Shown: piece by piece, positions 20,976 through 63,170 of the stretch | Position numbering within the stretch: position 1 is the first letter of the stretch | Layout of the letters: the number at the start of each line of letters is the position of its first letter | Assembly: GCA_938036435.1 (NCBI GenBank) | Contig: CALHPU010000018.1 | Coordinates: 62,001 to 126,000, forward strand | DNA from: an uncultured Pirellulaceae bacterium | Lineage (GTDB): Bacteria; Planctomycetota; Planctomycetia; Pirellulales; Pirellulaceae | DNA: 64,000 nucleotides | Direction: 5' to 3' | Notes under the pieces: generated by a model | Databases searched by the model: none | Told to the model about the DNA's origin: nothing | Seen by the model: only the letters and a program-made list of their open reading frames with translations | Program-made: the position numbers and the translations under genes

Positions 20976-21270
20976 GGCTAAATCGTAGTTATTCGCCACA
21001 CTTTGTATAGCGATTGGGCGAACTCATGGTCAATTAAAGCCCAATCCTATTTCGGACCGAGGCTCAAGAAACGGCATGCTACCCATTCGGTAGGGCCTTA
21101 GTTGAACTCACCTAGCCGATAGCACGTATCGAGGATATCAACTAAACTTGTCCACAAAGCCGCGATTTTCAACGGTCCCGCAGGACCGAATTTGTCATTC
21201 AGCCTCACAACCCATGCCATCGACCTGCCCAAACTTCTTTCTTCCGCAACCGGGCCGGTCGCCGATTAAA

Positions 21271-23472
21271 ATGGCTCGCATCGGGCTATTGGCCGCCGCG
21301 TGGGTGATGGTGGTCTGTTGTGGACTGGGGATTGCAGCCGAGAGTGCACCAGAGTCCACGATCGAAATCGGTTTCGCTCAAACGGCAAAACTTGGCCATT
21401 GGGTGCCTGTGACCTTCGCCGTGCCCGCCGGTACAGAGGCCGAAACTTTGGAGTTATCGGTGATCGACGGCGACGAATCGCCAGTGGTTTATTCGGCACC
21501 GGCAAGCCCAATGACCACAGATGCCGGAACTGCCTACCAAGGTCTTTGCCGATTCGGACGACGCTACGGCAATCTGACAGCGACGTTGGTTGGAGATGAT
21601 GGTCAATCAGTAATCAGCCAATCGATTAATCTAGAGACGGCTAACGCCAATCTCGCCTCGTCGACAGATCACCTGACGCTGCTCTTTGGTGGCAGCAAAG
21701 AACTGGAGAGTTCGCTCAAATCAACTTTTTGGATAACCACCGGTGACGCCAATTCAAGTCTTGTCCGTGTTACCGATTTTGACGCGTTACCAAACACCGA
21801 ATTGGGTTGGCAGTCGGTCGATCGTTTGATTGTTTCCTGTGCGTCAGCTGTCGGACTTGAGTCGTTGTCATCACAGCAATGGGTGGCGATCAGAAAATGG
21901 ATCGGCAGCGGCGGAAGCCTCGTCTTAATTGCGGATCCCGATAATTTGCCGCTGATCAATGAGACGCCGCTGGCTAAATTGTTTGCCCCGGCCAAAGCTC
22001 GTTTGAAAATGCTATCCTCCAGTCGGGAACTGGAGCGGTTTGTCGGTAACAGCCGTCGTCGGTTGATCAATCGGAACGAGCCCGGCATCGAGTTTGCCGA
22101 CGTTTCCCCGATTGCTGCTGACGTATCGGTCTTGTTGGCCGCCGAGGATGGTTCGCCGTTGGTGACACAAATGGCGGAGGGGTTTGGGCAAGTGAAATTT
22201 GTCGCAATTAGCCTTGAAGCACAGCGCTTGATGGACTGGCAAAGTTACAAAACGTTGCTGGAAAAAATCTTTGACAGTCGTAATCGAGATAGCTCCGTTG
22301 GTGTGACCAAACCAAGTGGAGAAGGTCCAAAAGCCGGTTCTGCGGTGACCCACTTTGGCTACGATGACATCACAGGGCAGTTGCGAGTTCCGTTGGATGA
22401 TTTTTCGACCGTCCGATTTCTGGATTTCACTTTGATTGCAATTCTGATCGCGCTGTACATCGTTTGCATCAGTGTGGGCGATTACCTTTTGCTGAATCGG
22501 TTGGTGAAAAAAATGGAGCTGACGTGGATTACGTTCCCGCTGATCGCGTTGTTGTTTTGTGGGATTGCTTGGGGGATTGCCAAGGCGACACGGCCCGCGC
22601 GGTTGCAGATTAACCAAATGGAAATTATCGACATCGATATCAACGAAGAATACTCGCGCGGCACGGCTTGGATTGATATTTATAGTCCCTCTGGTCAAAA
22701 CGTCGACGTTTCCGTCTCACCAACAACCGCAATAGGCTTAGACGTGACCAGCAGTTCGGTCACCTGGCAGGGCCTGCCGGGCGACGGGTTGGGTGGTTTA
22801 GAAACGAAAACCACAACCGGATTCAAACGCACTGGCTACCGTCAAGAAACGGGTGGCCTATCGGAAGAAGGAGGCTACCAAATTCGTCAAATGCCGTTGC
22901 AGGTATCGTCGACCCGATCGCTGGTGTCCCAATTCAAGATTCAAAATCCACCGACCATTAACAGTCAACTGAAAGTGCAACGTGACCGTTTGAGTGGCAC
23001 GGTGAAGAATCCGCTAGAGGTCACCTTGTATAATGGCAAAGTGTTTTTTGGTAATTACGTTTACCTGATGAAAAAGCCACTTCAGCCGGGAGATGTGGTT
23101 TATCTGGACACCGACTCTGATGAGAAGACAATCCGCACGGTGTTGAACCGAACGTCATCTCAAGGAACCACCGACCGCGACCTTGGCAAAACCCAAAGCC
23201 TTCCGTGGAATCCGCGTGATAGGAGTTTAACTCGCATCGCCGACATCATGATGTTTTACGAAGCGGCCGGCGGCGAAAATTATACGGGATTGACGCACGG
23301 CTATTTCTCGAAAATCGATTGCTCGCATTTGCTCAAACTGCAACGCGCTGTTTTAGTGGGACAGATCGAATCAGCCAGTAGCCTGCTGGTCGATGGCCAA
23401 GAGGTTAAAGAACTTTATGATTCAAGCGTGTCGATGGTACGTGTCGTTTTGCCAGTGGAAAGCAAAAGATGA
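21271..23472 (+). CDS. Membrane protein partner of an ABC ATPase
   Basis: A 733-residue protein from the ATG at 21271, where a signal peptide begins (MARIGLLAAAWVMVVCCGLG); ATGs at 21148 and 21214 are possible but add an unrelated leader. A large exported part comes first, with a stretch at about residues 150-230 (LIVSCASAVGLESL, VAIRKWIGSGGSLVLIADPD) like the glutamine-amidotransferase-like fold of gliding and ABC accessory proteins. Two membrane helices follow (FTLIAILIALYIVCISVGDYL and WITFPLIALLFCGIAWGIA), then a second soluble domain. Its TGA stop overlaps the start of the ABC ATPase gene by four bases, so the two are translationally coupled. It probably belongs to the transporter complex; the substrate is unknown. 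Confidence 0.75.
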   Translation: MARIGLLAAAWVMVVCCGLGIAAESAPESTIEIGFAQTAKLGHWVPVTFAVPAGTEAETLELSVIDGDESPVVYSAPASPMTTDAGTAYQGLCRFGRRYGNLTATLVGDDGQSVISQSINLETANANLASSTDHLTLLFGGSKELESSLKSTFWITTGDANSSLVRVTDFDALPNTELGWQSVDRLIVSCASAVGLESLSSQQWVAIRKWIGSGGSLVLIADPDNLPLINETPLAKLFAPAKARLKMLSSSRELERFVGNSRRRLINRNEPGIEFADVSPIAADVSVLLAAEDGSPLVTQMAEGFGQVKFVAISLEAQRLMDWQSYKTLLEKIFDSRNRDSSVGVTKPSGEGPKAGSAVTHFGYDDITGQLRVPLDDFSTVRFLDFTLIAILIALYIVCISVGDYLLLNRLVKKMELTWITFPLIALLFCGIAWGIAKATRPARLQINQMEIIDIDINEEYSRGTAWIDIYSPSGQNVDVSVSPTTAIGLDVTSSSVTWQGLPGDGLGGLETKTTTGFKRTGYRQETGGLSEEGGYQIRQMPLQVSSTRSLVSQFKIQNPPTINSQLKVQRDRLSGTVKNPLEVTLYNGKVFFGNYVYLMKKPLQPGDVVYLDTDSDEKTIRTVLNRTSSQGTTDRDLGKTQSLPWNPRDRSLTRIADIMMFYEAAGGENYTGLTHGYFSKIDCSHLLKLQRAVLVGQIESASSLLVDGQEVKELYDSSVSMVRVVLPVESKR

Positions 23473-29191: not shown

Positions 29192-32100
29192 TTAGCGTTC
29201 TAGCATTCGTTTAACGTCAGAGATGGTCGGCACTCCTGGGAGTACCGAAATCATCTTCCCTCGATTGTCGAATACTACCGTTGCCGGCAGCACGTCCGAC
29301 CGCAGCTCTTTGTTGACCAACCGATTGAAGTTTTTTCTCTCGGTATCGCGCCAAGGCGTCGCCAAGGTGTAAGGCGGCTTATGTTTGAGGACGTACTTTT
29401 GCAGTTTATCTTTTGAATCACCTTCGTCGACAGCCGCGCCAAAAATCCCCAACTGTTCTGCCGTAAAAGTTTGTCGTAGTAATTGGAGCTGCGGAATTTG
29501 CTTGCGGCAGTTGGGGCACCAAGTCGCGACCGAGGTAAACAGGGTTAGCTGTGACTTCGGTCCGTTTGCCTTTGGCGAGGCTTTAGCTGATTTTCCTCGT
29601 GGCGAAACGGTTGTCGCGATCGGTTTGGCATCGACGAGGTACTGGCTGACTTCGAAGCCTGAGCCATCGGAGGATTCTGTTGCGTTTTCAAAGACCGTCG
29701 CCAATTGACCCGCGGTCACGTTTTCGAGGCGTTGGGTTTTGCCTGAGGGCCATTGGACTTCGATCGATTCGGCAGAATCATTTTCCCCAATACCAAACAA
29801 CAGGTAGCGTGAGTTCTGTGCCGCAAGGCCCTCTCCGCAGCGATGTTGTCGGGTTAGCGATCGTTGCGAAAGATTCACTCTCACGCGCGCACCATATCCG
29901 TCACGCGAAGTGAACTGAGTCGATGGTGTGGCCTTGCGGTTACCGCCGACTAGTTTGACGGCAATCATGTTTCGGGGATTTCCAATAGCGCTCTGCTGAT
30001 TATGGTACAGGCTCAAGACAGGCGTGTTGATATTCAATAAAGCGATGTCCTGCCAACCGTCTCGGTCATAGTCCCAGACCGCAAAGGTCCGTCCGTCTTG
30101 GGGTGTGTCGATCCCAGAGATTCCAGAAATGTCCTCGAACTCACGACCTTGGACGTTGTGAAACAGGTGGTTGCGTTCCTTGCCACTAAAAGAGAGCTTT
30201 CCTCGTTCTAAAGAGGGAAGTTTGAATCGCTTGACGTTCCGCGATTTGCCATCGACAGTGGAAGCGGTGTCCCACGACTTGTTCGACACGAGTGAAGAGG
30301 CCAGTTTTTTGTCCGACTGCACGACCGTGCGCCAATAGTTGCTTCACAAATCCATATCAACGGCAATGTCCGATGGAGCAGTATAGTAGCCACTGGTTGC
30401 GTAGATGTCTCGAAAACCGTCGTTATCAAAGTCGAGAAATTGTCCGCCCCACGACCAACCTGATTTGGCCACTGTTAGCGCTGGTTTTTTCAACCCCGAA
30501 ACCAGAGAGAATTTGCCATCGTCGAGCCGATAAAGAAAGTTTCCTTGTGCCATCTCGCGCAAGCGCGGATCGATTCCGGCGACTTGGTCGGTAATTCGTT
30601 GCCCGGCTTTACTGAACATATTGGAAATGTAAATGTCAATTTGGCCGTCGTTATCATAGTCGCCCCACGAAACTCCCATTCCAAATCCCATTCCCGTCAA
30701 ACCTGATTCAACAGTAATGTCTTTAAATCCCTGATCGCCATCGTTGCGGAAAAAATTGTCGCGGGCGTAGTCGTTTGAAACGTAGAGGTCTTGATCGCCG
30801 TCGCCATCGAAATCATTCCATGAAGCCTGAAACGACATTCGCCACAATTCCAACTGGGAGTTTTCTTTGGCGATTTTGAATTTGCCGTCACCAACGTTCT
30901 GCAACAAAAGGTTGGGGGGGCCTGCGCGATCGATAAATTGATGTGAGCTTCGATTGCGTTTGGTGACTTCTTTGGCTTGCTGTGGAGTCAAAAACAGATC
31001 GACCCACTTCGGCTTGTTACTTACTTGGAAGCGATTGGTTTCTTCGATCGGGCTGTAGGTGCTCAAGTAGATGTCCAGCAAGCCATCGTTGTTGTAATCC
31101 ACTGCAGAAATCGAGGAGACTAACGCTGGCAGGGGAAAGTCAACCAAGTCACGTGTTTTGCGCACAAACTGGCCGCCTTGGTTGACAAAATATAATGAGT
31201 TTCGTCGAGCTCTTCCCAAAAACAGATCGGGATCTCCGTCGTTATCAAAGTCGGCAAAAATTGCACTGGTTGAATCTGGAGAGATGTTCAACCCATACTT
31301 TGCTGCGACTTCCTCAAACGAACCGTTCCCTTTGTTGCGGAATAAGAGATTGGGTTGGTGTTGCATGGTGACATAGAGATCGTCGAAACCATCGTTGTCG
31401 ATATCGACAACGGCAATGCCGGGATGTTCGAGTGTTACGTCAGGAAAAAAGAACGGATAGATCTCTCCCGGCGGGAAGAAATATTCGCCACCGGTCATCA
31501 GTTTAGAGGTTAGTCGGGTATGGAAAGAATCTGTCGCGCGGTTAACGAGAGCCTTGTCCCCAAGGGCTTCCGAGAGCACGTTTCGGAATAGCATCTGAGA
31601 TGTTTCTGTCGCGCCGATGTCGACAAGCTTCCACGAGGTGATTTGCCAATCGGCATTCGCGGTGCCTTTGACGAGCGCCCAGTTGACGTCTAATTTCACG
31701 TGCAGGCTTGCCTTGAGTCCATTCTTATAATTGGCCAATCCATTAAAACCTAAAACCGATTTGAACTGGTCTTTGCGGTTCTCGTGTAATTGCCCTTTTA
31801 TAAAATAGAATTTCGCATGTTCGAAATACTCAGTCGCCTCGAATAAAACCGGCCAGAAATCAAGGCCTTCCCTCGCAACAACAGATGCTCGGTCGTTAAT
31901 GCCCCAACTGCGTGCATCGGATTGTCGGTTTGAAATGCTTGTGGCTTCAGCAGCCGTCAAAACTCCAGATACGTCGACTTCTTCGGCAAATAAACCCTTG
32001 GCCGCTGATGCGTCGGGCAGTTGGAGGTTCATGACGCTTCTCGATAGCTCGCGTAAGCGAGGTGTCAGCTCCAACAATAGTTCTTCGGAACTGACAAGCT

Positions 32101-32260
32101 TCCGGACCTCTTGATCGTTGAGTTCGTTTTTCGCCGCCTGATTCTTCGATTGCCTCGGAGCGCTGGGATGGGAGGACCAGAGATTGAAGCTGGTAAGAGC
32201 GACAATGATCAATGTCAGACCGACGATCACTGAATTCGTGTTGTTGAAATAATTGGCCAT
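29192..32260 (-). CDS. FG-GAP/ASPIC-UnbV/thioredoxin-like protein, possible selenoprotein
   Basis: One continuous 1,023-codon frame crossed by a single UGA at 30344-30346 (codon 639). Residues 10-28 form a membrane anchor. An FG-GAP/VCBS-type propeller with Asp/Asn-rich repeats (DIDNDGFDDLYV, DYNNDGLLDIYLS, DFDGDGDQDLYVS) fills about 270-638. Then come an ASPIC/UnbV domain (about 764-858, DGYGARVRVN, WPSGKTQRLENV) and a TlpA-type thioredoxin domain with Cys-Pro-Asn-Cys (915-918). The reading frame, codon use and domain order continue across the UGA (SNYWRTVVQSDKK after it), which argues against a normal stop. A SECIS-like hairpin follows the UGA (see 30313-30346). If the UGA is a stop, the downstream part would need the GTG at 30322. 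Exported, probably surface-attached; function unknown. Confidence 0.7.
30313..30346 (-). promoter_or_regulatory. Candidate bacterial SECIS hairpin after an in-frame UGA
   Basis: Reading the minus strand after the UGA (30344-30346), 17 bases precede the loop GGTC (30323-30326). The upper stem is a perfect 4-bp GCAC/GTGC. A lower stem of five pairs (TTGGC with GTCGG, three of them G-U wobbles) has one bulged A. The E. coli fdhF SECIS has a GGUC apical loop about 18 bases after its UGA, a bulged base and a lower stem, so the layout matches. The loop, the spacing and the stem are read directly from sequence; function is inference. Confidence 0.6.
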
Positions 32261-48347: not shown

Positions 48348-51300
48348 ATGGCGACTGCCGACCCCACCTACGATCGCATTAACGATTACGCTTCAGTGAA
48401 AATCTCTTTGGCGCGTCCCCACGACATCCGTAGCTGGTCGATGGGCGAAGTTAAAAAGCCTGAAACGATTAACTACCGAACGTACCGTCCCGAGAAAGAC
48501 GGTTTGTTCTGCGAGCGGATCTTCGGACCTGAAAAGGACTGGGAATGTGCTTGCGGTAAATATCGTGGCATGAAGTACAAGGGCATGATCTGCGATCGTT
48601 GCGGCGTGAAGGTGACGCACTCGCGCGTTCGCCGTAAACGCATGGGCCACATCGAACTGGCCGCGCCAGTGGTGCATATCTGGTTCTTCAAAGCGATGCC
48701 TTCGCGTTTGGGTAACTTGCTCAACATGAAGACCAGCAGCCTTGAGAAGGTGATCTACTTCCAAGACTATGTTGTGACCGATCCCGGCACGACCGATCTT
48801 GAGCGACAACAATTGCTCAGTGAAGAAGAATTCAAAGCGGCTCGCGCTGAATTCGGCGAGGGGAGTTTCTCTGCCAACATGGGTGCCGACGCTGTTCGGG
48901 AACTGTTAGGCGAGCTGGATTTGGTTGCTCTTTCAGACGACTTGAGAGTTGAACTGGCGGAGACAGGTTCCAAGCAAAAGCGAAAAGACTTAACGAACCG
49001 TCTGAAGATTGTTGAATCGATCCGCGACAGTGACAACAAACCAGAGTGGATGGTGCTGGATGTGATCCCCGTGATTCCGCCGGATCTGCGTCCGCTGGTT
49101 CTGTTGGATTCGGGCAACTTTGCCACCAGCGATCTGAACGATCTTTATCGTCGTATCATCAACCGCAACAACCGCTTGCGGAAACTGGTTGATCTGAACG
49201 CGCCGGAAGTGATTATCCGCAACGAAAAACGGATGCTTCAGCAGTCTGTCGACGCTCTTTTCGATAACAATCGTTGTAAGCGACCGGTTCTCGGTAGTAG
49301 TAACCGCCCGCTGAAATCTTTGACAGACATGATCAAGGGTAAGCAGGGCCGTTTCCGCGAGAACCTGCTTGGTAAGCGTGTCGATTACTCGGCCCGTTCA
49401 GTGATCGTGGTTGGTGCTCGTCTAAAGCTGCACCAATGTGGTCTGCCAAAGAAGATCGCGTTGGAACTGTTCCAGCCGTTCATCATTCGCAAGTTGAAAG
49501 AACTCGGTCACGCCGACACGATCAAGTCCGCCAAGAAAATGCTTGAGCGGAAGGACGAAGAGGTTTGGGATATTCTCGAGCAAGTGATTCGCAACCATCC
49601 GGTGATGCTTAACCGAGCCCCGACGCTGCACAGGATGGGTATTCAAGCGTTTGAGCCGATCTTGGTTGAAGGTAACGCGATTCACTTGCACCCGCTGGTT
49701 TGTAAAGGATTCAACGCTGACTTCGATGGCGACCAGATGGCCGTTCACTTGCCGCTTTCCATTGAAGCTCAAGTGGAAGCCCATACGTTGATGCTCTCGA
49801 CGAATAACATTTTCGCACCGTCAAACGGCCGTCCGATTATGAGTCCGTCGCAGGACACGGTGATGGGTTGTTACTACGTGACGTTGATGCTGCCCAATCA
49901 AAAGGGCGAGGGAATGACGTTCGCTTCTTTGGATGAAGCCGACCATGCTTTCGCGCAAGGCGTCATCGCGCTGCACGCGAAGATCAAGGTGCGGATTGCT
50001 GAAGGCCGCTACATTCGAACTGGCGAAGATGAAAAACGCATCCCTAGCCAGATAATCGAGACGTCCTATGGCCGGATCATGTTGAACATGATGTTGCCTG
50101 AGGGAATGGACTTCTACAACTACACTCTTAAGAGTGGCGATCTGGCGACTGTGATTTCGGATTGTTACCAAGGGCTAGGCCGTCGCGAGACGATTAGCTT
50201 GCTTGATGACATGAACCAATTAGGTTTCCGCGAAAGTACTCGTTCGGGTCTTTCGTTCGCGACCGATGACTTGGTCACGCCAGATGAAAAAGAAACGATC
50301 ATCGCCGAAGCTGAAAAAGATGTGATCAAGCTTCGCAAGCACTACGAGCGCGGTGTGATCACCGAAAAAGAACGCTACAACCAAGTGCTTGAGAAATGGA
50401 CCCACGCTCGTGAGGCCATCACCGGCGTCATGATGCAGGCCATGAAGGACGATGACCGTGGCGGCATGGGATATGTCAACCCGGTTTATCTAATGGCTCA
50501 CTCCGGTGCTCGTGGTGGTGTCGAACAGATTCGTCAGTTGGCAGGTATGCGTGGCCTGATGGCCAAGCCGACCGGTGAAATTATCGAGACGCCGATTAAG
50601 GCGAACTTCCGTGAAGGCCTGTCGGTTCTGGAATACTTCTCTTCGACGCACGGTGCTCGTAAAGGTTTGGCCGATACAGCGCTCAAGACAGCCGACTCGG
50701 GATACCTGACTCGTAAGCTGGCCGATGTCGCTCAGAATGTGGTTGTCACCATGGAAGATTGTGACACGACCAAGGGAATCACCAAGGGGATTATTTACCG
50801 TGGTGAGCAGGTTGAAGTTCGATTGGCGACAGCGATCAACGGTCGTGTCTCACGTCAGAACATCGTCAACCCAATTACCGATGAAGTGGTCGTTGCCGAA
50901 TCGCAAATGATCACACCTGAGATCGCCAAGAAGATCGAAGACATGGGACTTGAGAAAATTCAGGTTCGCAGCCCGATGACTTGTGACGCTCCGCTGGGAG
51001 TTTGCCGCAAGTGTTACGGCATGGACATGTCGACAGGAGACTTGGTCGAAGAAGGTATGGCTGTCGGAATCATCGCGGCTCAGTCGATCGGTGAGCCCGG
51101 TACTCAGTTGACCATGCGTACGTTCCACATTGGTGGTGTTGCCAATACATCCACCGAGAAGAATGAAGAGCGTTGTAGCAAGGGTGGAATTGCAAAACTG
51201 ATTCGTATGCGATCGGTTGTTAACGGCGATGGCGATACTGTTGTCCTCAATCGAAATGCGGAAATTGCGATCTGCGATGAACGCGGTCGTGAGCTTGAGT

Positions 51301-53648
51301 CTCACAAAATTCCAGCTGGTGCGACATTGGCGGTCACCGAAGGTGGCAAGGTCAAGGCAAAAGGCGTGCTGTGTCGCTGGAACCCGTTTGCTGCTCCGAT
51401 TCTCTCAGAGGTCGAAGGTAAAGTGCGCTTCGAAGACATCATCGAAGGCGAGACGATGCAAATGGAGCAGGAAGCTTCTGGTACGATTCGCCGTACGATC
51501 ATCGACTTCAAAGGCGACCTGCACCCGCAGATTGTCATCGAGGACAAAGAAGGTAACGCGTTGGACGTGTACTACTTGCCTGAGCGTGCCAATATTACGG
51601 TTAAAGAGGGTGCCAAGATCAAGACCGGTACCGCGATTGCAGAAACACCTCGTGAAGCATCCGGCATTTCGGACATTACCGGTGGTCTGCCTCGTGTGAC
51701 TGAGATTTTCGAAGCACGTAAACCGAAGGATCCTGCCGTGATGGCTGAGATCGACGGTACTGTCGAACTGGGTGACAAGAAGCGTGGCAAGCGTACCATT
51801 ATCGTTCGCAGCGAAAGCGGTCTTGAGGTCGAGCACTTGGTGCCGCCAGGAAAACGATTCTTGGTTCACTCGGGTGATACAGTGACCGCCGGTCAGCAGT
51901 TGATCGACGGACCGTTGGTGCCGCACGACATTCTACGTGTCTCTGGCGAAGAGGCTGTTCAGCAGTACCTTGGTCACGAGATTCAGCAGGTCTATCGCAG
52001 CCAGCGTGTTGAGATCAACGACAAGCACGTCGAGATCATCATCGCCCGGATGTTGCGTAAGGTGAAAGTTGAATCTGCCGGTGACAGCGATATGCTGCCG
52101 GGCTTGATTTGCGATCGCTTTGAATTCCAGACCACCAACGAAGAACTTGCTAAATGCGTGAAGATCACTGACAAAGGTGATAGTGATTTGAGCAAAGGTC
52201 AGGTTGTGGCACGCGACGTGTTTGAAGAGACCAACGCCAAAATTGAAACCCTCGGTGGTAAGCCCGCCAAAGCGAACAAGCCTCGTCCGGCCACTCACAG
52301 TACGCAGTTGCTGGGAATCACCAAAGCTTCGGTACAGAGCTCCAGCTTTATCTCGGCGGCCAGTTTCCAAGAGACGACGAAGGTTCTAACTGAGGCTGCT
52401 TTGGCAGGTAAAGTTGACAACTTGGTCGGTCTGAAAGAGAACGTGATTTTGGGTCACTTGATTCCAGCGGGAACAGGTTTCCGGACCTTCCAAGACTCCG
52501 AGGTTCAGTACAACCTCGAAGCGATGCGCGAGGCGGCTCTGCAGCCAACTCAATCGCTCGAAGAAAGCTTCCCGCTTTTGGAATCGGCGACTTCGACCAA
52601 TCCGCTTGCTGATGATTCAGCGAGTCCTTCGGCGGAACTGCCAAACGATTTCCTTAGCACGATGGCAGCGTCCGGTTCACTGGGTGATCTTGGTGCCGAA
52701 GTGGCTGGCGACGGAGCGACTGCTCAGGCCAGTTCCGGTTTGCTCGGTGGCGACGTTTCCACGTTGGCCGATCCTCAGTCACTCGCCGGAGACGACTTTA
52801 CTAAAATCGAAGGTGTGGGGCCAAAGATTGCGGAACTATTGAACGCGGGTGGCATTACGTCGTTTGCTCAACTTTCACAAACACCGCCAGATCACATCAA
52901 GTCGGTTCTTAACGCCGGTGGACCAAGCTACGCTAATCATGATCCGAGCACTTGGCCGGATCAAGCAATGCTGGCCGCCAACGGTGAGTGGGACCAGTTG
53001 AAAGACTGGCAAGACCAGTTGATTGGTGGCAAGATGCCTGAGGGTACCGCCGCGGCTGGTATGCCAGACGCATCTGGCATGAGTTCGCTGATGGCGGCTG
53101 ATACGGCAGCGCCTGTCGTTCCGACGACTCCAGAGGCTCCTGCTGATCAAGATGACCTGACCAAAATCGAAGGCGTTGGTCCTAAGATTGCTGAATTGTT
53201 GGGTGCCGGTGGCATCACTAGCTTTGCTCAATTGGCCAGTACTCCCACTGAACAAGTCCAGTCTATCCTCAACGCCGGTGGTCTGGCGTCACATGATCCG
53301 ACAACTTGGGCGGCTCAGTCTCAGATGGCTGCCGATGGCAAGTGGGACGAACTCAAGGTGTGGCAGGACGAACTTGATGGCGGCAAAGAAGTCACCAAAG
53401 ACGATCTGACGAAAATCGAAGGAATCGGCCCCAAGATTGCGGAAATTTTGAATGCTTCAGGCATCAACGGTTTCAAGACGCTCGCTGGCACGACGCCGGT
53501 GCAACTCAGCGCTGTTCTGGATATGGCCGAAGGTAATTTTGCCGCTCACGATCCAACCACATGGCCTCAGCAAGCTCAGATGGCTGCTGATGGCAAATGG
53601 GATGAGCTACAGAAGTGGCAGGATGAGCTCGACGGAGGTCGTGCTTAA
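48348..53648 (+). CDS. rpoC: RNA polymerase beta' subunit with HHH-repeat extension
   Basis: A 1,766-residue catalytic subunit. The zinc-binding N-terminus (CACGKYRG and [12 protein letters not shown]), the active-site loop [16 protein letters not shown] and the trigger/bridge blocks ([16 protein letters not shown]-like [17 protein letters not shown]) are normal, as is the end of the core near residue 1390. About 370 residues follow that ordinary RpoC lacks. They include an acidic linker and three repeats beginning near 1482, 1602 and 1685, each with TKIEG(V/I)GPKIAE(L/I)L, followed by a segment with (H)DP-x-TWP or similar and W-DEL-x-WQD. The repeats resemble helix-hairpin-helix modules seen in DNA-binding proteins. 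A start with AGGAG is well placed. Confidence 0.97.
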
Positions 53649-59835: not shown

Positions 59836-62727
59836 TTACTGGTTTTCTTCGTCTTCTCCGCCGCCACCGACGACTAAATCATCGCCGAGGCCACCGAATA
59901 AGATGTCGTCGCCAAAACCCCCACGAAGCTCGTCGTCGCCATCACCGCCAACAAGCTCGTCGTCGCCATCGGCACCAAATAGCAGGTCGATCCCTTCATT
60001 TCCGAACAACCGATCGTCGCCGAAGCTGCCCGCGAGACGATCGTTGCCTTCTCCTCCCGCGATCGAGTCGTTGCCTTCATCGCCGCGAGCAAAATCATCT
60101 CCGGCGCCAGCGTTAATCGTATCGTTACCCAAGTTTCCAAAAATCTGGTCGTTACCGGCAGCACCGTTGAGAAGGTCGTCGCCGAGTCCACCGATGAGGA
60201 TATCGGCACCCGCTCCGCCAACCAATGTGTCGTCGCCTTCAAGCCCGTTGAGAGTTGTGGGACGCGATCCAGTCACGATTAGCGTGTCGTCGTTTGACGA
60301 ACCAACCAAGCGGTCGATACCTGTAAAGGTTTCGTTAACCTGTCCATATTCAGCAGTCCCGGATCCGTCATCATTAATTCTCGCCGTAACGCCTACACCG
60401 ATGCCTTGAAAGGAGTTTGTGTCGAACCCAAGGCCGCCGACGATCGTGTCAGTGCCGCCGATACCAACAAAGAAGTCATCGCCTTCGCCTCCTCCCAAAA
60501 AGTCGTCGCCGGCTCCTCCATTGAGGCTGTCGTTTCCGTCGCCTCCCAATGCCCTGTCGTTTCCTCCACCGCCGCGAAGAATGTCATCGCCGTCGTTACC
60601 AATCAGCAAGTCATTTCCACCATCTGCGTTGAGGATATCGTTTCCGCCAAGGCCTCTTAACACAGTATCGATGTTTCCAGTGGCGTTAAGGATGTCGTCG
60701 TGGTCCGAGCCAGTCAAATTCTCGATGCCGACGAAATTTTCGTTGACTGTCCCATGCGAGGCAACGCCCGAACCGCCTTCGTTAACCCTCGCGATGACTG
60801 CCGAGTCAACTCCTTGAAAAGAGTTAGTGTCTGTTCCAGCGCCGCCGTCGATGGTATCTAGGCCGCCGATCCCGACGAGGAAGTCGTCGCCATTGTTGCC
60901 GTTAAGCGTATCATTGCCGGCGCCTCCATTAACAAAGTCATCGCCATTGCCGCCGTTGGCTAGGTCGCTACCGTTACCAGCGCGAAGAATGTCATCGCCA
61001 TCGTCACCATTGAGTACGTCGCTGCCTTCGCCTCCATTGAGCATGTCGTCGCCGCTTCCACCGTTGATCAAATCATTGCCGTCGCCACCACTGAGGGTGT
61101 CGTTTCCAGCGAGGCCATCGATGGTGTCGTCGCCAGCGCCGCCATTGATGATGTCATCACCTGATCCACCGACCAGCGTGTCGTCGCCGGCACCACCATT
61201 GATCGTGTTGGTATCGACCTGAAATGTTTCAACAAAGATATTGCCGTCGCCGGTGTCGCCAGCAGAGCCACTGGTAACTTCACCATTGAGGTTGCCGCCA
61301 GCGTCTCGGATGACATCGGTAATGACTGGGCCGCTTACTTGCGACACGGCATTGTGAATACTGATGGCACTCACATCACGAATCGCACCTCCCGGCAAAT
61401 CGGCGGTGCTGATGCCGTCGATATTCAGATCAGCGGAATATTCAACGCTTGCGCCGTCTACGGTAATGGTAACGGTTGCTTCTCCAGTAGCATTTGAACT
61501 AGAACCGTTGTTGGCCACTTGTGCCGAATCTAAATCGGCGGCCAGTACCAACGTTCGAACTCCATTGACCGTTGAATCGGATTGCGGGATGAGCTGCCCA
61601 CGGATCTCGCCGTCGGAGAAAGAGAACCCTGAAGTACGAACTCTAAGGTACAACTCGCCGGCTGCGGCCTCGGCCACTAAATCCGAGGGAGACTGCGGAG
61701 TCGTTAAAGAGGTCAACGGATGAGAGTTTACTGATAGGTCAAACCCAGTAACTACAGCGGTGCCGCTGATGATTGTGTCGTCACCGCCCAAGCCTGAGAT
61801 GACATCGTTTCCAAGACCACCATTGATAACGTTGTCCGAGTCGTTTCCAGTCAGTACGTCATCATTGTCGGAGCCGAACAGGTTTTCGATGCTTGTGAAG
61901 CTTTCGGTGAAAGGGCCGTCTTCGGCGGTGCCTGATCCATCAGCGGCTAGTGTTACCGTCACTCCATTGTCGGAACCGACAAACGAATTGGTGTCAGATC
62001 CGGCTCCACCTTCAATGACGTCGGTTCCGCCTCCACCGGCAAGTATGTCGTCGCCGGCGAACCCTCTAAGAATGTCGTCACCGCCGCCGCCGCGCAGTTG
62101 ATCGTCACCAGCACCACCTTCGATGATGTCTTCGCCTTCTTCGCCTAGAATAAGATCGTCACCCGAGCCACCGGTTAGCACATCGTCGCCAAAACCACCG
62201 GTGAAACTAACGCCAGATGATAAGGCTGAGACGTCGATGGTGTCGGCACCTGAGAAACCATCGACGAACAGGCTTTGAAAGATTGCTCCGTCAGCTGCAC
62301 TGGTCGCGGTAAACACGTCGTCGAAATCACCCAAGTTGAAGTTCAGGGCTCCGATCAAAGAACTTGCGTTGCTGATCGACAAAGTGTCATTGGCAGACTG
62401 CGATTGGCTGAGTACGAAATTAGAGTTTCCGACCGCATCGCCCTCTAGCACAATCGAATCGCCTCCACCCACCTGAATCTGAAGCGAGTTGGCTGTCGGC
62501 GCGCTCAAAGATACGACATCTAAATCGCCGTCGTCGGCCTGAAAAAACACCTGCCCGCCGTCTTGAATTCCAGTGGTTATAGAATTAAAAGTGACCGACG
62601 CGAGCAAGTTGCGTTGCTCAAGCGATTCAATCATTAAGAGTTGTGTGCGAGTTCTGCGCCGGAATTTTCTGTTCTTTTTCCAAACGACTGTCCGGCTAAT
62701 TCTCGAAATCCAATTGTAGTTCTTCAT
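59836..62727 (-). CDS. RTX/CHRD surface protein with LEQRNLLA-type N-terminal motif
   Basis: A 963-residue protein starting at the ATG 62727, which has a strong AGGAG site. The N-terminus is basic (MKNYNWISRISRTVVWKKNR) and leads to MIESLEQRNLLAS, a planctomycete motif at the N-terminus of many exported giant proteins. The body is made of haemolysin-type Gly/Asp-rich nonapeptide repeats (GGDGNDLINGG, GGAGDDTLVGG), with a CHRD-like domain in the middle (TSGFSFSDGEIRGQLIPQ). Ca2+-binding RTX repeats suggest secretion. The function (adhesion or matrix) is unknown. The frame is open to 62850. Confidence 0.85.
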   Translation of the reverse strand: MKNYNWISRISRTVVWKKNRKFRRRTRTQLLMIESLEQRNLLASVTFNSITTGIQDGGQVFFQADDGDLDVVSLSAPTANSLQIQVGGGDSIVLEGDAVGNSNFVLSQSQSANDTLSISNASSLIGALNFNLGDFDDVFTATSAADGAIFQSLFVDGFSGADTIDVSALSSGVSFTGGFGDDVLTGGSGDDLILGEEGEDIIEGGAGDDQLRGGGGDDILRGFAGDDILAGGGGTDVIEGGAGSDTNSFVGSDNGVTVTLAADGSGTAEDGPFTESFTSIENLFGSDNDDVLTGNDSDNVINGGLGNDVISGLGGDDTIISGTAVVTGFDLSVNSHPLTSLTTPQSPSDLVAEAAAGELYLRVRTSGFSFSDGEIRGQLIPQSDSTVNGVRTLVLAADLDSAQVANNGSSSNATGEATVTITVDGASVEYSADLNIDGISTADLPGGAIRDVSAISIHNAVSQVSGPVITDVIRDAGGNLNGEVTSGSAGDTGDGNIFVETFQVDTNTINGGAGDDTLVGGSGDDIINGGAGDDTIDGLAGNDTLSGGDGNDLINGGSGDDMLNGGEGSDVLNGDDGDDILRAGNGSDLANGGNGDDFVNGGAGNDTLNGNNGDDFLVGIGGLDTIDGGAGTDTNSFQGVDSAVIARVNEGGSGVASHGTVNENFVGIENLTGSDHDDILNATGNIDTVLRGLGGNDILNADGGNDLLIGNDGDDILRGGGGNDRALGGDGNDSLNGGAGDDFLGGGEGDDFFVGIGGTDTIVGGLGFDTNSFQGIGVGVTARINDDGSGTAEYGQVNETFTGIDRLVGSSNDDTLIVTGSRPTTLNGLEGDDTLVGGAGADILIGGLGDDLLNGAAGNDQIFGNLGNDTINAGAGDDFARGDEGNDSIAGGEGNDRLAGSFGDDRLFGNEGIDLLFGADGDDELVGGDGDDELRGGFGDDILFGGLGDDLVVGGGGEDEENQ

Positions 62728-63170
62728 GGAGTATCTCCTGTTGTTTTCGCCGAAGGAAAAATCGGGCTGGTGTTGAGCGTCTATTTGCGCGGCAGATAAG
62801 TACGGCAACGGCCTATGACCGAACTCGGTTGGAGGCGTTAGTCTGGTCAATCTGATTAAGTTGAGATTGATGCAGCAAATAGATGATCGACAGAATGATC
62901 ACAGCGCTTGATGAATCCCTCGGCGTTTGGCGACTGCAATCACGGTTGTGCAAGCAATGCAAGAGAAGGTGGGTAGGCGGGGCAACAAGTCTTGTGCCCT
63001 CCCAGCGGGCTGGTTTTGGTAAACCCTAGGGATTCTGCCGGTTTTAGTGATGAGGTGATCCTGAAGGAGCCGATGGACCAGATTGAGTCATCGTTTTTTT
63101 ACGCAACTCTGGGGCCTCAGTATGGAACTGAGACAGGTGCCCTATTTTGATCAGTGACAATGGAGTCGTC
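62728..63170. other. 443-bp divergent intergenic region
   Basis: Promoters for the RTX gene (minus) and the coiled-coil gene (plus) are expected here. A palindrome (CTCAGT/ACTGAG, 63116-63132) lies 40 bp before the coiled-coil start. Nothing else is recognised. Confidence 0.4.

Follow-up and report, generated by a model that had tools for sequence, protein, structure and literature searches.

For proteins in which FG-GAP repeats precede a UnbV_ASPIC domain, a group that includes CRTAC1, we know of no established biochemistry. Prokaryotic selenoproteins, in which selenocysteine (Sec) is specified by an in-frame UGA codon, have been compiled in a 2026 catalogue (PMC13188914) whose Table 1 holds 119 families and subfamilies and which, in its available text, cites the papers of Haft for families in that table. 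The main text of Kim et al. (2016; PMC4807772) describes selenoproteins of Planctomycetes from Porphyra and Sec machinery in two of three new genomes. Here we examine a gene on the minus strand of a 64,000-nucleotide stretch of DNA (the window) from an uncultured Pirellulaceae bacterium (assembly GCA_938036435.1, contig CALHPU010000018.1, positions 62,001 to 126,000). A reading of the window from its letters alone (the sequence-only reading) had proposed that this gene, which encodes an FG-GAP/UnbV_ASPIC protein and is crossed by one UGA, might found a new selenoprotein family. We predict that the gene is very likely a selenoprotein in which UGA codon 639 is read as Sec, because the UGA itself, a covarying bacterial selenocysteine insertion sequence (bSECIS), Cys in a sister clade, co-occurrence with selA, selB and tRNA-Sec, and equal constraint on both sides of the codon all agree. 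The gene very probably represents a multi-copy, multi-phylum family that would incorporate selenium on a propeller loop.

The minus-strand frame running from 32260 to 29192 has a single in-frame TGA, at 30346-30344, and mechanical calling of open reading frames (ORFs) breaks the gene into pieces of 638 and 376 amino acids. Translation of the same interval on the plus strand gave many stops, so the gene was assigned to the minus strand. The claim that one frame crosses this UGA with domains on both sides was confirmed: apart from the UGA, the frame of 1022 residues is open. An open frame as long as the 382 codons 3′ of the UGA has a chance of about 6e-8 given the base composition, and none of 20000 shuffles stayed open. 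Judged against the closest relative, the downstream part is under the same constraint as the upstream part, with a ratio of nonsynonymous to synonymous substitution rates (dN/dS) of 0.106 upstream and 0.105 downstream of the UGA. In two further comparisons, for which dS is saturated, the proportion of nonsynonymous differences (pN) was 0.22 before and 0.26 after the UGA in one, and 0.16 before and 0.31 after it in the other. Elsewhere in the window UGA does end a gene in the example that had been given, where the TGA at 23470-23472 terminates ORF 21148-23472.

The sequence-only reading treated this locus as one odd gene; it turns out instead to belong to a large family of predicted Sec genes. 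A search with the read-through protein against 117 genomes (its own and those of relatives; at most six candidates scored per genome) gave matches at E 1e-60 or better in 39, many of them multi-copy. Every listed match carried a TGA except one N-terminal fragment; the stops so listed may include the terminal stop, and the position of the UGA column was checked in the loci that were aligned or fetched. There, in 30 fetched loci including the window gene, 35 of the 36 aligned places have TGA at the column, and the 36th is a distant paralogue (27% identical) in L030 with TGT (Cys). The source genome itself holds a second copy of the family, likewise with TGA. In a scan of named genomes, for which the best 80 loci were kept, 37 aligned rows had a residue at the column (32 TGA, 3 TGC, 1 GAG and 1 GCC), and 464 rows from other FG-GAP stretches had a gap there. 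By their record titles, the TGA forms among these 80 loci come from Planctomycetota, Verrucomicrobiota (Akkermansiaceae, Roseibacillus), Acidobacteria and Gemmatimonadetes.

When the phylum was sampled more widely, 41 of 149 genomes matched at E 1e-100. Fourteen regions from this sample, picked because the search listed a TGA and therefore a test of position rather than of frequency, all carry the TGA at the UGA column. The six regions picked because no stop was listed, which were all of that kind, have Cys in two cases, Ala, Gln and Asn in one case each, and in one case lack the sequence block around the column. The sequence-only reading had asked for homologues to be aligned at this codon, and Cys homologues (TGC or TGT) were indeed found in L122, L132, L136, L030, L177 and L178. 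A UGA conserved at one column and Cys homologues at that same column are among the features by which selenoprotein genes are recognised. On a quick tree of 59 proteins the Cys forms of L122, L132, L136 and L030 make up one clade, and the Glu and Ala forms lie among the Sec forms, which suggests that Sec may have been lost to Glu or Ala within Sec lineages. The Ala form L112 sits on a long branch of this tree and its place is unsure, and the two proteins without the block are placed next to Sec rows (support 82). The tree has a midpoint root and so does not settle the age order of Sec and Cys.

Within the family, four candidate motif subfamilies may be distinguished, namely DLUSxxWR, PDGUxC, DLU[VP]PFW and DYUTYYWR. 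In L180, L181, L190 and L191 the TGA lies in a PDGU-x-C-[VL]-W motif with a Cys two residues past the UGA and with the hairpin in another register. Tandem runs of two or three Sec-family matches were seen on contigs of G002, G006, G016, G017, G018 and G019. In L174, L175 and L176 the residue at the Sec column is Ala, Gln or Asn; their genomes hold TGA-bearing matches as well (listed by the search, column position unchecked), and these three loci are possibly non-catalytic paralogues.

According to the available text of PMC13188914, a bSECIS has a loop of 3-9 nucleotides (nt) with G in the first two positions, a stem of at least 4 pairs, a spacing of 16-37 nt and a minimum free energy (MFE) of -7.5 or lower. 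The hairpin described in the sequence-only reading, with a GGUC apical loop starting 17 nt past the UGA, is present and lies within these limits in loop, spacing and stability (MFE -8.1). This hairpin is significant only through its conservation. In every one of the 63 distinct genes the stretch behind the UGA folds more stably than its synonymous shuffles do on average (mean z -1.48), and an MFE of -7.5 or lower is reached by 58 of these genes. Two hairpin registers (loop of 4 or 5) were admitted, and the null shuffles were likewise given the better of the two. On this basis at least five of six stem pairs form in 57 of 62 genes, with L118 excluded for its different register, as against a synonymous null mean of 16.8 and maximum of 23. 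Of the 63 genes, 50 have the GGTC loop, where the synonymous null gives 10.2 (maximum 17). One stem pair is represented by six standard pair types and one G-G mismatch, and the paralogue in the source genome has a compensated stem, with GTAC/GTAC where the window has GCAC/GTGC. Eleven genes have Cys, Glu, Ala, Gln or Asn in place of the UGA; ten of them form three pairs or fewer, and the Glu form makes four. The 14 TGA regions of the wider phylum sample all fold under -7.5, and in 11 of them the first loop is 16-37 nt from the UGA. Divergent subfamilies use other hairpins, and L191 has a second one whose loop comes after 20 nt.

A check of the genome for selA, selB, selC and selD, as had been proposed, gave a mixed result; the sequence-only reading had named a lack of selB and selC as refuting, and this is the one test that the Sec reading did not pass. 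The source assembly encodes a tRNA-Sec (70.3 bits, anticodon tca, which reads UGA) and a SelD (269 bits) that lies within a longer ORF whose N-terminal part looks oxidoreductase-like by eye; SelA and SelB were not found over cut-off in this assembly, which is 89.75% complete. The two best SelB candidates, an EF-Tu-sized ORF beside a tRNA on the window contig and an ORF that is CysN/CysC-like by eye, were rejected, as was a SelA candidate that by eye is a SufS-like enzyme. Relatives of the same genus carry both genes, and for this reason an assembly gap is the simplest reading of the result.

Of the 117 genomes, 70 have a SelB and 72 a SelA over cut-off. A tRNA-Sec scoring at least 58 bits occurs in 68, and 78 have one that exceeds the Rfam cut-off of 47; the 10 genomes whose sole match is under 58 bits were not counted as tRNA-Sec carriers. 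All 39 genomes that carry the family have at least one of selA, selB and tRNA-Sec, and 36 have at least two, with G000, G021 and G098 having one component only. At E 1e-60 the family has no match in any of the 37 genomes for which all three components were scored as missing (Fisher p 6e-9 for the association, not corrected for kinship). In an alignment search of these 37 genomes at E 1e-30, four matched, and the closest match lacks the U block. Among 23 named genomes, SelB was found over cut-off in 16 of 18 with TGA, in both of those with Glu or Ala and in none of the three with Cys.

Several observations weigh against reading the UGA as Sec. The gap proposed for the source assembly would have to be two gaps, since selA and selB lie on different contigs in the closest relative, G011. 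Seven of the 37 genomes scored as having no machinery hold an uncounted tRNA-Sec match of 49.9-53.5 bits, over the Rfam cut-off, and 41 of the 80 genomes with some machinery show no family match at E 1e-60. The window hairpin taken alone is unexceptional (z -0.30; 66 of 200 dinucleotide shuffles are at least as stable), and individually just 16 of the 63 hairpins beat 95% of their synonymous shuffles. In the wider phylum sample just 5 of the 14 TGA regions form at least five pairs in either register tested and 9 fold otherwise; the first-loop spacing is out of range in L181 (13 nt), L184 (14 nt) and L191 (7 nt). The Ala form L174 and the Gln form L175 also fold below -7.5 over a length of 39 nt, so stability alone proves little and does not discriminate. 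Finally, forms with Glu, Ala, Gln or Asn occur in genomes with SelB or TGA-bearing copies, and therefore the residue is not always needed.

Part of this evidence has been weighed for other explanations of the UGA. A nonsense mutation or sequencing error, which would make this a pseudogene or a gene that encoded one protein until recently, would suit a draft assembly in which SelA and SelB were not found. It is nevertheless extremely improbable, as TGA recurs at 35 of 36 aligned places in separate assemblies, the codon is also TGA in several phyla, and the downstream dN/dS is 0.105 against the closest relative; in our view the conservation across separate assemblies refutes it. Conserved stops with downstream reading are known elsewhere, and together with the tolerance of Glu, Ala, Gln and Asn at the column they would fit a real stop, crossed by regulated or leaky read-through or separating two adjacent genes, where any inserted residue is incidental. 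This too is very unlikely, given that all 35 stops at the column are TGA in the 30-locus set, in which any stop could show (frames from the named-genome and phylum-wide sets were cut at TAA/TAG and cannot test the choice of stop). The hairpin within the published bSECIS limits (PMC13188914), the lack of any family match at E 1e-60 among the 37 genomes scored as having no machinery and the sister clade with Cys also argue against a real stop. It is highly improbable that a suppressor or reassigned tRNA inserts Trp or Cys at the UGA, because UGA terminates another gene of the window, the best tRNA-Sec match has a UGA-reading anticodon, and both the conservation of the hairpin and the association with selA and selB indicate Sec.

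The predicted selenoprotein consists of an N-terminal hydrophobic helix, an N-terminal alpha/beta region, FG-GAP repeats, a UnbV_ASPIC domain and a TlpA/ResA-like thioredoxin domain, in that order (Table 1). Matches to Pfam FG-GAP_3 (2.4e-41) and UnbV_ASPIC (8.4e-17) are both over cut-off, and the succession of FG-GAP repeats and UnbV_ASPIC places the protein among the FG-GAP/UnbV_ASPIC (CRTAC1-like) proteins. Only the C-terminal domain has the character of a TlpA/ResA-like thioredoxin: it matches AhpC-TSA with 29.0 bits (cut-off 26), its CxxC is formed by C915 and C918, and both TlpA and ResA are among its PDB sequence matches, ResA also by fold. An AlphaFold2 model built with 24 sequences has a mean predicted local distance difference test (pLDDT) score of 83.0 and a predicted template modelling (pTM) score of 0.85. 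Murine CRTAC1 (9etn) is the top-ranking PDB entry in the comparison of sequence profiles as well as in that of folds. Residue 639 lies in the model at the start of a helix (639-648), in a loop between strands 618-623 and 698-703. The idea of a Sec in an FG-GAP/UnbV_ASPIC protein with a thioredoxin-like domain was supported, except that the residue sits on a propeller loop, outside the thioredoxin domain. Residues 9-28 may serve as a membrane anchor or signal, which suggests a role in export.

The positions of Cys residues were compared in 51 full-length Sec genes, with genes cut by contig ends and the 14 phylum-wide TGA regions left out and with any C-x-x-C in the tail accepted as a CxxC. Fifteen of the 51 have a Cys at 641 (U-S-C) but lack a CxxC; in 35 others a CxxC follows UnbV_ASPIC and C641 is missing, and one has C808 only. 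A mutual exclusion of C641 and C808 had been considered and was wrong, as both occur in 9 of 35 genes; the real exclusion is between C641 and the CxxC after UnbV_ASPIC. This pattern can be read as a selenol that needs a resolving thiol, either near or fused. The Ser692 column is occupied by Ser in all 51 Sec genes, by His or Asn in the Glu and Ala variants, by Asn or Asp in four Cys homologues, and by Ser in one of the two proteins without the block. In the Ala variant L112 both Cys residues are gone from the thioredoxin columns. A Pfam search of eight Sec genes found a redoxin-type domain over cut-off in five and below cut-off in one, and none in L090 and L095.

In the mechanism that these data suggest, SelB and tRNA-Sec would decode codon 639 as Sec with the aid of the adjoining hairpin, and the product would probably be an extracytoplasmic, membrane-anchored selenoprotein. 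Sec would be presented at the start of a short helix in a loop of a CRTAC1-like FG-GAP propeller, where its selenolate may be the reactive group of a thiol/selenol redox enzyme. Once oxidised, Sec could be resolved by a nearby thiol: the Cys of U-S-C, a Cys of UnbV_ASPIC or a TlpA/ResA-like CxxC, which in the window protein would be that of the C-terminal thioredoxin domain. We regard a thiol/selenol redox mechanism as fairly probable. Sec639, Ser692, Arg555, Trp643 and Glu695 together with the resolving thiol form a candidate active site, and disulfides, peroxides or periplasmic electron carriers are candidate substrates.

Three findings sit uneasily with this mechanism: the Glu variant L092 retains the CxxC; L090, counted as a CxxC gene, has no thioredoxin-type Pfam match; and genes of the C641 form group together in a single clade, so that shared ancestry may account for part of the thiol pattern. 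A genuine Sec might also act as a metal ligand on the propeller, of a Cu, Zn or haem type, in place of a thiol-redox nucleophile. Such a role is suggested by three of the first four Cys homologues, which have an adjoining second Cys and a His (C-x4-C-H-D), and by proteins encoded upstream of Sec genes in L096 (with a SCO1/SenC domain) and in L098 (a MauG-type di-haem protein). However, 50 of 51 Sec genes have Arg644 where those homologues have the second Cys, the remaining two Cys forms have Thr or Ser there, the neighbourhoods share no consistent partner, and the exclusivity of U-S-C and CxxC fits a resolving thiol better. We therefore consider a metal ligand unlikely and prefer the thiol/selenol redox mechanism.

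Table 1. Positions of the predicted selenoprotein gene and its features in the window.
Feature	Coordinates	Strand	Basis
Predicted selenoprotein gene, 1022 residues with UGA as Sec	29192..32260	-	ATG 32260-32258, stop TAA 29194-29192
In-frame UGA, residue 639, proposed Sec codon in motif D-L-U-S-x-x-W-R	30344..30346	-	TGA at 35/36 aligned places
Putative bSECIS hairpin (MFE structure), directly 3′ of the UGA in the mRNA	30314..30334	-	MFE -8.1 kcal/mol
Apical loop GGUC, 17 nt spacer from the UGA	30323..30326	-	Sequence, folding
N-terminal hydrophobic helix, residues 9-28	32177..32236	-	Sequence and predicted helix (low-confidence stretch)
FG-GAP beta-propeller, residues ~280-760	29981..31423	-	Pfam FG-GAP_3, AlphaFold2 model, PDB match 9etn
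Ser692, position tracking Sec	30185..30187	-	S in 51/51 full-length Sec genes
UnbV_ASPIC domain, residues 788-853, with Cys808	29702..29899	-	Pfam
TlpA/ResA-like thioredoxin domain, residues 904-1003	29252..29551	-	Pfam AhpC-TSA; TlpA and ResA matches in PDB
CxxC (WCPNC, Cys915 and Cys918), proposed resolving pair for Sec639	29507..29518	-	Sequence, conservation; putative role

The neighbourhoods of the window gene and of its relatives (for the latter, 10 neighbouring genes were scanned) revealed no consistent partner or function. Neighbours in the window with Pfam matches include CBM_4_9, a phosphoesterase, a Na/Ca exchanger and a ferritin, and scattered redox neighbours of the relatives include the MauG-type protein, a SCO1/SenC fusion and planctomycete cytochromes. 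The SCO1/SenC protein, at L096:1299-5045 and just upstream of the Sec gene, is itself an FG-GAP/UnbV_ASPIC protein by Pfam, and the N-terminal sequence of L170 looks similar to it by eye. Features of two other proteins of the window were also noted. The RNA polymerase beta' subunit (48348-53648, plus strand, 1766 amino acids) is extended far at its C terminus, where helix-hairpin-helix and DUF4332 matches begin at about residue 1480, and a protein of 1004 amino acids (59836-62850, minus strand) has 14 RTX-type calcium-binding stretches and a CHRD domain.

In the table of 119 families in PMC13188914 we saw no entry for FG-GAP, UnbV_ASPIC or CRTAC1. In the searched passages of PMC13188914, PMC12013277 and PMC9312934 the words FG-GAP and CRTAC1 do not occur, nor does Planctomycet in those of PMC13188914; ASPIC and FG-GAP are likewise absent from the main text of PMC4807772, as distinct from the candidates in its S9 Table. 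Full-text literature searches for selenoprotein with FG-GAP and for selenocysteine with CRTAC1 returned, judging by the listings, only papers on human, cell or animal subjects, and such searches found no paper pairing selenoprotein with UnbV or selenocysteine with ASPIC. Among the matches listed for selenocysteine with Planctomycetota and for wider queries, no title concerned a Sec propeller family. No NCBIfam selenoprotein model scored over cut-off for the window protein or six relatives. Within the literature searched, and as far as the accessible parts of these sources reach, the family is thus not among the catalogued selenoprotein families. On balance we favour the view that it forms an uncatalogued extracytoplasmic superfamily with a Sec borne on a beta-propeller, found in at least four phyla, multi-copy in many genomes of the genus of the window, divided into several motif subfamilies, and with an exchangeable resolving thiol, placed at a distance of two residues in some members and on a fused thioredoxin domain in others.

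If this is true, a propeller rather than a thioredoxin-like fold presents Sec, and the family could be a major user of selenium in the bacteria that carry it. It would add to the selenoproteins a family with Sec on a propeller and with a testable active site, and the natural Sec, Cys, Glu, Ala, Gln and Asn versions provide material for studying the role of selenium. Because ORF calling splits the window gene, a widespread family may lie hidden in Planctomycetota, Verrucomicrobiota and Acidobacteriota.

Comparison with known systems places the family between several of them. It shares with the families described in the available text of PMC13188914 an in-frame UGA, a bSECIS within 16-37 nt and Cys homologues, and with the selenoproteins in the main text of Kim et al. 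(2016) the same phylum. The C-terminal domain of the window protein is like the TlpA/ResA-type thioredoxins, including the UGC-containing TlpA-like selenoproteins that the accessible part of the 2026 catalogue describes. Unlike those selenoproteins, the window protein has an ordinary CxxC in its thioredoxin domain, with the predicted Sec about 280 residues upstream, in the propeller. CRTAC1 and the bacterial FG-GAP/UnbV_ASPIC proteins have the same FG-GAP propeller followed by UnbV_ASPIC, to which the Sec family adds a long propeller loop that would bear the Sec, an N-terminal region and often a thioredoxin domain.

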